DNA of 64,000 nucleotides from Ferrimonas lipolytica (GTDB taxonomy: Bacteria; Pseudomonadota; Gammaproteobacteria; Enterobacterales; Shewanellaceae), in contig NZ_CP051180.1 in the NCBI RefSeq assembly GCF_012295575.1, forward strand, positions 2,108,001-2,172,000, read 5' to 3'. How positions within the stretch are numbered: position 1 is the first letter of the stretch; every line of letters starts with the position of its first letter. Of this stretch, positions 1,274 to 49,243 are shown one piece after another. The notes beneath the pieces were generated by a model that was given only the letters and a program-made list of their open reading frames with translations, was not told the origin of the DNA and searched no databases. Both the position numbers and the translations under genes were made by a program.

Positions 1274-1566
1274 GGCTATGTCGTAGTTAGCTGTTGAAGC
1301 TTATCTTAGGCCTTTGGCTTCACCGATTTCGGTGCTTTTAGGGGACTATGTCGCGGTGGCGACGGTACATTCTTGTATGCATTAGCGGGGAGCTTCGCCC
1401 CCTTTGGAATCCCCCTTTGCCTTAGGTCGCAGTCCAAAACGCTTCGCTGAACTGCTCCAATGCGGCAGAAGATCAATAGCGTTAGTGCTTTACCCTTTGT
1501 ATCAAAACTTGCCTAGCCAGTGCTTTAACAGCCTTAGAAAGAACAACACTTAATTGGTACACAGCC
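1274..1566 (+). mobile_element. MITE-like element, copy A (full length, ~293 bp)
   Basis: One of eight copies of a dispersed non-coding repeat in this window. It begins GGCTATGTCGTAGTTAGC and ends TTAATTGGTACACAGCC; the ends are imperfect inverted repeats. It is flanked on both sides by the identical 8-mer CAAAAAAA (1266-1273 and 1567-1574), as expected for a target-site duplication. It occupies most of the spacer between pxpA and the CoA-disulfide reductase gene. The short reading frame on its minus strand is broken by a stop and is not a gene. No transposase is present. Confidence 0.85.
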
Positions 1567-1593: not shown

Positions 1594-3297
1594 ATGACCA
1601 AAATTGTCATTGTGGGAGGCGTCGCTGGTGGGGCCTCCGCTGCAGCTCGTGCTCGCCGCCTATCGGAAAACGCTGAAATTATTATGTTTGAACGCGGCCC
1701 CTTCGTCTCATTTGCTAACTGTGGCTTGCCGTACCACATTGGTGGCGAAATCACCGACCGAAGTAAACTGCTATTACAAACACCAGCAAGCTTCCGAGCT
1801 CGTTTCAACGTAGACGTTAGAGTGATGAGCGAAGTAATTAGCATCGATCGCACCAATAAATCCGTCACCGTTACTAACCTCAAAGATGGTAGCGACTATA
1901 CCGAACACTACGATTACTTATTGCTTAGCCCCGGAGCCGCCCCGTTTGTGCCGTCTATCCCGGGCATCAATAATCCATTAACACACTCACTGCGTAACAT
2001 TCCCGATATGGATAAGATCCTGCAAACTTTGCAGGTAAATAATGTCGAGCATGCCACTGTGGTTGGCGGCGGTTTTATTGGTCTTGAGATGATGGAAGCT
2101 TTTACCCATCTTGGCATCAAGACCACATTACTTGAGCTTGCCGATCAAGTTATGAGCCCAGTTGACCGTGAGATGGCGGGGTTTGTTCATAGTGAGATTC
2201 AAGCCAAAGGTGTCGATCTTCGCCTTGGTACCGCTCTAACGGCCGTCGAGTACGTTACCGATAATTACATCGCCACTGAAGAAGCAGGTGAAACCATTGC
2301 ACACCAACACATTAATGGCCACCTGCAGTTATTGCTTAGCAATAACCAAACTCTCAATACCGATATGTTAATCATGGCGATAGGTGTACGCCCAGAAACA
2401 TCATTGGCTGAACAGGCCGGTCTAAAATTGGGGACCCGTGGCGGAATATTTACCACGCCAACCATGCAAACCAGCGATCCCTTCATCTATGCCGTCGGCG
2501 ACGCAGTGGAGCAATCGGACTTTGTGACTGGCAAAGCCAGTCTGGTCCCACTAGCTGGCCCAGCGAACCGACAAGGGCGCATGGCTGCTGACAATATGCT
2601 TGGAGGTAGTGCTAGCTATCAAGGGACTCAAGGCACCGCTATCTGTAAGGTATTTGATCTCGCAGTAGCTTCAACAGGAAAAAATGAACGCCAACTGCAA
2701 CAAGAAGCGATGCAATACGAGAAAGTCTATGTTCACAGTGCTAGCCACGCTAGCTACTATCCTGGTGCCGAGATCGTTTCGCTGAAACTGCTATTTTCAC
2801 TGACCGATGGCAGCATACTCGGCGCACAAGCGGTCGGAAAAGACGGAGTCGATAAACGTATCGACGTCATCGCCGTTGCCCAGCGAGCCGGTATGACGAT
2901 AGAGCAACTACAGCATCTCGAGCTTACCTATGCGCCGCCATACGGTTCAGCTAAAGACGTAGTAAACCAAGCCGCTTTTGTGGCCAATAACATTCTCTCC
3001 GGTCTCACTCAACCCATTCATTTCCATCAACTCGATGAGTTAAATAACGACCAGTTATTACTGGATGTTCGCAGCCCAGGTGAATTAGAACGAGTCGGCT
3101 TTATCGACGGCAGCATCAACATTCCGGTAGACCAGTTAAGGCAGCGCATGGCTGAACTGCCAAAGGACAAGGAGATCATTGTCATCTGCCAAGTCGGACT
3201 GCGTGGTCATGTTGCCCAACGCCAATTGGTTAACCGTGGCTATCGTGCTCGCAACTTAATTGGTGGTTATAAAACTTATGCTGCAGCAACGCAGTAA
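1594..3297 (+). CDS. CoA-disulfide reductase with C-terminal rhodanese domain
   Basis: FAD/NAD(P)-dependent pyridine nucleotide-disulfide oxidoreductase of 567 residues. The N-terminal Rossmann motif is IVIVGGVAGGASAAAR. The motif SFANCGLPY places the single redox cysteine at Cys43, as in CoA-disulfide reductases that use one Cys rather than a CxxxxC pair. A second nucleotide-binding GGG motif lies near residue 155. The last ~100 residues form a rhodanese domain with the active-site loop IVICQVGLRGH (Cys532). In the Shewanella homologue Npsr this architecture acts as an NAD(P)H-dependent persulfide/polysulfide reductase. A role in sulfur or CoA persulfide metabolism is therefore likely here, but the exact substrate is inferred. 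An AAGGAAAAG ribosome site precedes the ATG. It stands alone, with MITE copy A directly upstream. Confidence 0.9.
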   Translation: MTKIVIVGGVAGGASAAARARRLSENAEIIMFERGPFVSFANCGLPYHIGGEITDRSKLLLQTPASFRARFNVDVRVMSEVISIDRTNKSVTVTNLKDGSDYTEHYDYLLLSPGAAPFVPSIPGINNPLTHSLRNIPDMDKILQTLQVNNVEHATVVGGGFIGLEMMEAFTHLGIKTTLLELADQVMSPVDREMAGFVHSEIQAKGVDLRLGTALTAVEYVTDNYIATEEAGETIAHQHINGHLQLLLSNNQTLNTDMLIMAIGVRPETSLAEQAGLKLGTRGGIFTTPTMQTSDPFIYAVGDAVEQSDFVTGKASLVPLAGPANRQGRMAADNMLGGSASYQGTQGTAICKVFDLAVASTGKNERQLQQEAMQYEKVYVHSASHASYYPGAEIVSLKLLFSLTDGSILGAQAVGKDGVDKRIDVIAVAQRAGMTIEQLQHLELTYAPPYGSAKDVVNQAAFVANNILSGLTQPIHFHQLDELNNDQLLLDVRSPGELERVGFIDGSINIPVDQLRQRMAELPKDKEIIVICQVGLRGHVAQRQLVNRGYRARNLIGGYKTYAAATQ

Positions 3298-5439: not shown

Positions 5440-5716
5440 GGCTGTGTACCAACTAAGTGTTGTTCTTTTCAATGCTGTTAAAGCACCGCCTAGGCGAGTG
5501 TTGATACAAGGGCAAAGCACTACCGCCGTTGCTCTTCTGCCGCATTGGAGCAGTTTTGGGCTGCGACCTAAGGCAAGGGGGCTTTCAAAGGGAGCGGAGC
5601 TCCCCCTAATGCATACAAGAATGTGCCATCGCCACCGCGACATCCTCCCCAAAAGCACCGTAATCGGTGAAGCCGAAGGCTTGATATAAACTTCAACAGT
5701 TAACTGTGACACAGCC
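5440..5716 (-). mobile_element. MITE-like element, copy B (reverse orientation)
   Basis: Nearly full-length copy of about 277 bp, inverted relative to copy A. The left edge is GGCTGTGTACCAACTAAG and the right edge ends AACTGTGACACAGCC; 18 of the first 23 positions match between the ends. The flanking 8-mers AGACCAAA (5432-5439) and AAACCAAA (5717-5724) differ at one base. The right edge lies directly against the terminator hairpin at 5722-5755, and the duplicated target overlaps the A-tract of that hairpin. Confidence 0.85.
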
Positions 5717-17942: not shown

Positions 17943-17970
17943 AGATGGGGACAGCATTTTATTTTTCAAC
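17943..17970 (-). promoter_or_regulatory. sigma-32 (heat shock) promoter of htpG
   Basis: Minus strand: GTTGAAA (-35, 17964-17970), a 13-base spacer, then CCCCATCT (-10, 17943-17950). The known sigma-32 consensus is CTTGAAA-N11-16-CCCCATNT, so only one base differs. The spacing equals that of the lon promoter in this window. Confidence 0.8.
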
Positions 17971-18029
17971 AGTTATCACAAGAATTAGCTAATTACTGAT
18001 TCCATTAAACGTACGCCAGCTTTAACTAA

Positions 18030-18558
18030 GGTGCTTTACTGGGGTTACGTTACGGTGGCGACGGCCGCCAAAGAGGAGCTTCGCATCTTTGGTCCCCCCT
18101 TTTTGCCTTAGGTCGCCGCCCAAGCGCTTCACTAGCCTGCTCCAATGCAAGCAAAGCTCAAAGGTAGCAGTGTTTTATTCTTTGTATCTACTATTTATCT
18201 AGGCTGTGTCACAGTTAGCAGTTGAGGTTTATATCAAGCCTTCGGCTCTACCGATTACAGTACTCTTAAGGGGTTATGTCGCGGTGGCGACGGCACATTG
18301 TTGTATGCATTAGGGGGGGGGGGAGCTTCGCCCCCCCCTTTGGAATCCCCCTTTGCCTTAGGTCGCAGTCCAAAACGCTTCGCTGGACTGCTCCAATGCG
18401 GCAGAAGATCAACGGCGGTAGTGCTTTCCCCTTGTACCAAAACTCGCCTAGCCGGTGCTTTAACTGTATTAGAAAGAACAACACTTAATTGGTACACAGC
18501 CTTTATTTAGCCCGTGCTTTAACACTATTGAAGAGAACAACAGTTAGTGGTGTTTACC
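18030..18558 (+). mobile_element. old MITE copy, split by a nested younger copy
   Basis: Diverged copy in two pieces, 18030-18201 and 18502-18558. The left piece keeps the GGTGCTTT, GCGACGG, GCCTTAGGTCGC, CTCCAATGC and TTTGTATC landmarks in the family order. The right piece continues with GCCCGTGCTTTAACACTATT and GAGAACAACAGTTAG. The outer ends are eroded, and its true left boundary is unclear. The younger copy at 18202-18501 interrupts it precisely, with a duplicated 8-mer. Its right edge touches the stop codon of the truncated regulator gene. Confidence 0.75.
18202..18501 (+). mobile_element. MITE-like element, copy C (nested, full length, 300 bp)
   Basis: Begins GGCTGTGTCACAGTTAGC and ends TAATTGGTACACAGCC. 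The flanking 8-mers TTTATCTA (18194-18201) and TTTATTTA (18502-18509) match at seven of eight positions. It carries an expanded internal hairpin: 11 G at 18313-18323, AGCTTCG, then 8 C; other copies have about 4 and 5. It lies within an older copy of the same family, the clearest sign in the window that the element moved. Confidence 0.88.
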
Positions 18559-29887: not shown

Positions 29888-30099
29888 GGCTGCTTACCAA
29901 CTATGTGTTGTTCTTGCCAATGCTGTTAAAGCACCGGCTAGGCGAGTGTTGATACAAAGGGTAAAGCACTATCGCGGTTGATCTTCTGCCGTATTGGAAC
30001 AGTCCAGCGAAGCGTTTTGGACTGCGACCTAAATTCCAAATGGGGGGCCCCCTAATGCATACAAGAATGTGCCGTCGCCACCGCGACATCCTCCCCGCC
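29888..30099 (-). mobile_element. MITE-like element, copy D (one end lost)
   Basis: Begins GGCTGCTTACCAACTATG, runs through the family landmarks to GCGACATCCTCCCC, then ends abruptly after GCC. About 70 bases of the expected far end are missing. The flanking 8-mers AAATCAAA (29880-29887) and CAATCAAA (30100-30107) still match at seven of eight bases. This suggests an internal deletion that spared the last three bases and the target duplication. It abuts the terminator at 30105-30138. Confidence 0.75.
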
Positions 30100-30104
30100 C
30101 AATC

Positions 30105-30138
30105 AAAAGTGCCGAGGCATCGCTGCTTCGGCACTTTT
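30105..30138. terminator. bidirectional terminator between sbcC and ruvX
   Basis: 11-bp arms AAAAGTGCCGA and TCGGCACTTTT. The A-tract on its left side overlaps the right target duplication of MITE copy D. Confidence 0.8.
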
Positions 30139-33561: not shown

Positions 33562-33666
33562 GTCTGTACCACAGTCAAATGTTGAGATTTATGTCAAGCC
33601 TTGGGCTCTAGCGGTTGCGGTGCTTTAACAGCATTGGCAAGAACAACACCTAATTGGTACACAGCC
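33562..33666 (+). mobile_element. MITE-like element, copy E (internally deleted, ~105 bp)
   Basis: Both ends are present (start GTCTGTACCACAGTC, end AATTGGTACACAGCC) but the middle is missing. The junction is GGTGCTTTAACAGC. In full copies a GGTGCTTT lies ~60 bases from the left end and another before AACAGC near the right end. A deletion between those short direct repeats explains it. The flanks share ATAAAAA. It abuts the ppiD terminator. Confidence 0.78.
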
Positions 33667-44038: not shown

Positions 44039-44330
44039 GGCTGTGTCGTAGTTAGCTGTTGAGGTTTATATCATGCCTTCCGCTCTAACGATTGCAGTGC
44101 TCTTTAGGGGAGGATGTCGCGGTGACGACGGCACATTCTTGTATGCATTAGCGGGGAGCTTCGCCCTCTTTGGAATCCCCTTTGCCTTAGGTCGCAGTTC
44201 AAAACGCTTCGCTGGACCGCTCCAATGCGGCAGAAGAGCAACGGTGGTAATGCTTTCCCTTCGTGTCAAAATTCCCCTAGCCGCTGCTTTAACAACATTG
44301 GAAAGAACAACACTTAATTGGTACACAGCC
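44039..44330 (+). mobile_element. MITE-like element, copy F (full length, 292 bp)
   Basis: Ends GGCTGTGTCGTAGTTAGC and TTAATTGGTACACAGCC; 17 of the first 23 terminal positions pair as inverted repeats. The flanks TAATTAAG (44031-44038) and TAATAAAG (44331-44338) differ at one base. The right duplication overlaps the A-tract of the cysS terminator. It is a good reference copy. Confidence 0.87.
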
Positions 44331-48948: not shown

Positions 48949-49243
48949 GGCTTTGTACCAGCTAAGTATTGTTCTTTCCTGTGCTGTTAAAGCACCGGCT
49001 AGGCTAGTTTTGATGCAAGAGGAAAGCACTACCGCCGTTGCTATTCTGCCGCATTGGAGCAGTCCAGCGAACCGTTTTGGATTGCGACCTAAGGCAAAGG
49101 GGGGGAATTCCAAAGGGAGCGAAGCTCCCCTCTAATGCATACGAGAATGTGCCGTCGCCACCGCGACATCCTCCCCTAAAAGCACCGAAATCGGTAGAGC
49201 CGAAGGCTTGATATAAATCTCAACACTTAACTGTGACACCGCT
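48949..49243 (-). mobile_element. MITE-like element, copy G (reverse orientation)
   Basis: Begins GGCTTTGTACCAGCTAAG and ends CTTAACTGTGACACCGC, so the right tip is slightly degraded. The order of internal landmarks is intact (CACCGGCTAGGC, CTGCCGCATTGGAGC, GCGACCTAAGGC, CGCGACATCCTCCCC). I find no convincing duplicated 8-mer, so it may be older. It lies in the convergent Yip1-purF spacer. Confidence 0.8.

Follow-up and report, generated by a model that had tools for sequence, protein, structure and literature searches.

A putative IS1595-type miniature element inserted in an older copy of its own family upstream of htpG in Ferrimonas lipolytica

The gap upstream of htpG in Ferrimonas lipolytica holds two copies of one short repeat, and the question raised by this locus is whether the inner copy entered the outer one by transposition. 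The locus was studied within a window of 64,000 nucleotides (the whole stretch of DNA that was analysed), for which an earlier note had described a 300-bp copy at 18202-18501 interrupting a diverged, collinear copy. This description was borne out by an nhmmer search with a profile built from family copies of the same Ferrimonas genome. The segment 18202-18501 was recovered over the full model length (1-292) as a member of the family, with 346 bits, and independent matches on the same strand were found on both of its sides. The left-hand match of the older copy covered 18005-18189 (model 33-230, 70.6 bits; 78.2 bits with a refined model) and the right-hand match 18508-18550 (model 240-282, 19.9 bits; 21.2 bits with the refined model). 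The older copy starts at about 17972-18005 and ends at about 18557; its right inverted repeat is decayed, and the decay of its 5' inverted repeat and of its own target duplication is too advanced for exact placement. The composite consists of the following parts:

18005..18201, + strand: older copy, left piece (model ~33-238), ending in target-site copy 1; nhmmer, 70.6/78.2 bits
18194..18201, no strand: target-site duplication copy 1, TTTATCTA; from the sequence, 7/8 against copy 2
18202..18501, + strand: younger full-length copy with inverted repeats GGCTGTGTCACAGTTA...TAATTGGTACACAGCC; 346 bits, 95% to consensus
18502..18509, no strand: target-site duplication copy 2, TTTATTTA; from the sequence, 7/8 against copy 1
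18508..18557, + strand: older copy, right piece (model 240-292); 19.9-21.2 bits (18508-18550), extended to 18557 by pairwise alignment

Excision of the insert and one 8-mer restored the family order, as had been proposed: the joined older copy scored 115.8 bits, compared with 78.2 and 21.2 bits for its pieces apart, and no gap was present in the alignment at the junction. The proposed duplicated 8-mer stood in part. The sequences TTTATCTA (18194-18201) and TTTATTTA (18502-18509) do flank the insert, but the duplication is imperfect, with one base different and seven of the eight positions identical. A flank match of at least 7/8 arose by chance in 2.3% of cases when unrelated flanks of the same AT-rich family were compared. 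The insert is thus bounded exactly by its terminal inverted repeats (TIRs) and a target-site duplication (TSD), and the outer copy is collinear once the insert is removed, as in a nested self-insertion.

The repeat family has a non-coding consensus of about 292 bp with inverted-repeat ends, and a transposase gene is absent. Its left end is GGCTGTGTCRYAGTTARSTGTTG, and its right end is the imperfect inverse, GGCTGTGTACCAACTAAGTGTTG. The 8-mers immediately outside the ends, which are strongly AT-rich, matched at 82% of positions in 48 full-length copies, compared with 41% between unrelated copies; among the lengths of 2-12 tested in these 48 copies, a comparable excess was seen at none other than 8. 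A total of 68 clusters were found in the 804 kb sampled (the window together with 37 stretches from spaced positions), which extrapolates to approximately 350 loci per genome, or about 2.3% of the sequence. Family sequence lay 98% outside predicted genes and made up about 11% of non-coding DNA, both fractions being based on gene calls by a simple longest-ORF rule. Exact matches to the 16-base TIR numbered 322 in the genome and zero in a reversed control. Besides the composite, the window contained six further family copies:

1274..1566, + strand: full-length copy, TSD CAAAAAAA 8/8; profile search and flank comparison
5440..5716, - strand: full-length copy, TSD 7/8; profile search and flank comparison
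29888..30116, - strand: truncated copy (model 40-292); profile search
33562..33666, + strand: internally deleted copy of ~105 bp (model 3-59 and 244-292); profile search
44039..44330, + strand: full-length copy, TSD 7/8; profile search and flank comparison
48949..49243, - strand: full-length copy, TSD past recognition (3/8); profile search and flank comparison

A reading of the full-length copy as a structured RNA was dropped, since its predicted fold was no better than that of shuffled sequences (z −0.78).

One recognisable IS1595-family element (PF12762) was identified in the genome as a candidate partner, at G000:C1:3637558-3638586. It is 1029 bp long, is broken by stops, and has TIRs GGCTGTGTCTTAATTA/GGCTGTGTTTGAGTTA and flanks TATTAAAA/TATTAAAG (7/8); its ends read GGCTGTGTCTTAATTAGCTGTTG and GGCTGTGTTTGAGTTAACTGTTG. 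A further remnant at G000:C1:3351122-3351479 keeps just both ends of the transposase gene, and the search for an intact transposase in this genome returned only broken or partial IS1595 copies. Intact 1023-bp copies of the insertion sequence (IS) occur in the sister species G008; their ends are of the same kind, and their TSD matches at 8/8. Their 315-aa transposase matched the IS1595 model NF033547 at 1.3e-54, and also contained an IS1/IS1595 zinc-binding domain. The IS and the repeat agreed at 19-21 of 23 positions at the left end and at 16-17 of 23 at the right end, and had nothing in common in the interior, beyond about 24 bp at the ends. Since both the terminal repeats and the duplication length match those of an IS1595-family IS, the repeat can be assigned on sequence grounds to an IS1595-type family of miniature inverted-repeat transposable elements (MITEs). 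It combines the traits of such a family: short length without a transposase, shared TIRs, an 8-bp TSD and many dispersed copies.

The assignment agrees with what has been published on related systems. IS1595 elements usually carry flanking 8-bp duplications, and an N-terminal zinc finger is present in those outside the IS1016 group (PMC8101967); in the candidate partner, likewise, the IS1595 DDE domain is accompanied by a zinc-binding domain at the N-terminus. Unlike an IS1595-family IS, the Ferrimonas MITE is devoid of transposase, and the partner IS is broken in this genome. The 8-bp repeats of ISApl4 are rich in A/T (PMC12561309), as are the 8-bp target duplications of the family described here, and the TIR of ISApl4, GGGGCTGTACTAGA, likewise has GGCTGT at its start. 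MITEs of IS1595 elements are already known from ISHwa6 of Haloquadratum walsbyi (165 bp, 25-bp inverted repeat, 8-bp direct repeat; PMC3852290). The ISHwa6 MITE is similarly short and non-coding, with 8-bp direct repeats and with inverted repeats common to an IS1595 element. In contrast, the Ferrimonas family is about 292 bp long, resides in another host, has an interior unrelated to the IS found, and occupies an estimated ~350 loci, compared with seven copies of the ISHwa6 MITE. Prokaryotic elements lying one within another have been termed 'Russian dolls' (PMC3852290); here, however, the two are members of the same family, and the interrupted copy is plainly the older one.

The kind of element is already known, and the family seems to be a new representative of it that is confined to the genus. 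In Ferrimonas it reaches a high copy number, and in this genome the source of its transposase is no longer intact. A strict core match was found in none of 295 other genomes of the order (congeners were not among them), and searches of plasmids and phages revealed no similarity. No mention of miniature inverted-repeat transposable elements was found in the Ferrimonas papers searched. A separate, diverged family is present in the congener G010 (loci L031-L045); it shares the core (GTTATGTCGCGGTGGCGACGGCAC...) and the GGCTGTGT ends, and the core was seemingly better kept between G010 and Ferrimonas lipolytica than the regions beside the ends.

The composite around 18202-18501 is very probably a nested MITE pair, in which a non-autonomous IS1595-type element of ~292 bp lies in the same orientation inside an older, decayed family copy. 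Judging from the matching ends and the TSD length, an IS1595-family transposase acting in trans may have catalysed the jump. It would have cut with an 8-bp stagger after binding to the GGCTGTGTC...GTTG ends, with the older copy serving as an AT-rich, non-coding landing target, and the transposase gene would since have decayed in the Ferrimonas lipolytica genome. Nesting is an ordinary, expected behaviour for such elements, and the composite can be explained without invoking a function.

The two copies differ greatly in age. The insert is 95% identical to the consensus and the outer copy about 75%, a figure to be read beside its bit score, since shuffled sequence under the same gapped alignment already gave 63%. 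The inverted-repeat-exact ends, the family-type 8-bp duplication, the restored collinearity and this large age gap all fit two separate rounds of transposition, so that the repeated rounds put forward in the earlier note are supported. The evidence clearly points to at least two rounds of family activity with substantial decay between them. In seven congeners, which are related species rather than strain-level genomes, the gap between htpG and orf279 was about 80-105 bp and held neither copy; an allele with the older copy by itself was seen in none of them. This marks both insertions as lineage-specific, without thereby displaying the intermediate allele. Because the gap is element-free in all seven, both insertions probably postdate the divergence from G010, the nearest of them (HtpG 94% identical). 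Within the genome itself, the role of the empty site is played by family copies at other loci that no insertion has interrupted.

Three other explanations were weighed. The outer pieces might be chance similarity or conserved promoter sequence surrounding the insert rather than a family copy; the left piece is indeed just about 75% identical to the consensus and can hardly be aligned over its first ~40 positions. The joined copy nevertheless aligned with an E-value of 2.7e-37, far from the random-level alignment that had been set as the test of the older copy, and the same gap in the seven related species is without such sequence, which leaves this explanation with a negligible probability. 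A composite formed by recombination between family copies or by their tandem duplication, instead of by transposition into a copy, would be in keeping with the tandem arrays in the genome, of whole elements at L066 9390-10299 and of the core at L067 8357-9755, and with chimeras that have two left ends (L063 9297-9661, L070 5140-5454). However, both breakpoints fall exactly at inverted-repeat ends, an 8-bp target duplication is present and the outer sequence is intact, none of which is expected from homologous recombination; we consider such an origin extremely unlikely here.

A special mechanism by which the family prefers to insert into its own copies could be suspected, since 0.8 Mb of sequence contained two complete composites and several others that were adjacent or recombined. 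If elements land at random in non-coding DNA, however, as many as five or so self-hits are predicted for 46 full-length copies. With family sequence forming some 11% of the non-coding target, the self-insertions are not above random expectation and self-targeting is not needed, so that such a preference is highly improbable. Insertion of a younger MITE into an older one by ordinary transposition remains the preferred reading.

The self-insertion at 18202-18501 is not unique in the genome. A second composite was found at L108 13163-13708 (G000:C1:1813163-1813708), with both target duplications recognisable (inner TSD 6/8; outer TSD 7/8, TAAATAAC/TAAATAAA); when joined, its outer copy scored 171.6, compared with 130.8 and 35.2 apart. 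The chimeric copies at L070 5132-5462, which lies within a perfect TAACAAAT duplication, and at L063 9297-9661 each combine a pair of left ends with a single right end, and are probably nested insertions that would have been shortened later by recombination. If inner and outer copies recombined after a self-insertion, this could, more tentatively, have given rise both to two-left-end chimeras and to the tandem arrays of element and core, a scenario that we regard as possible though rather doubtful. The L066 array (G000:C1:909390-910299) comprises three whole elements head to tail with 300-bp spacing, joined by AAATAAAA and with TTTTTGTT outside on both sides. The L067 array (G000:C1:1003357-1004755) consists of about eight element cores without inverted-repeat ends (model ~65-254, ~185-bp period), and is located directly downstream of a gene whose large, lipoprotein-like product carries CxxCH haem-binding motifs.

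A predicted htpG promoter motif on the minus strand (17943-17969) immediately adjoins the decayed outer copy. This motif, TTGAAA-N13-CCCCATCT, which we take to be sigma-32-like from its presumed consensus, looks intact beside the older copy, so that the insertions upstream of the putative promoter seem to have been tolerated. Elsewhere in the window, an Rfam match to Vibrio RNA AS7 (RF02819, 111 bits, minus strand) was recorded at 1616-1784, within an opposite-strand ORF (1594-3297).
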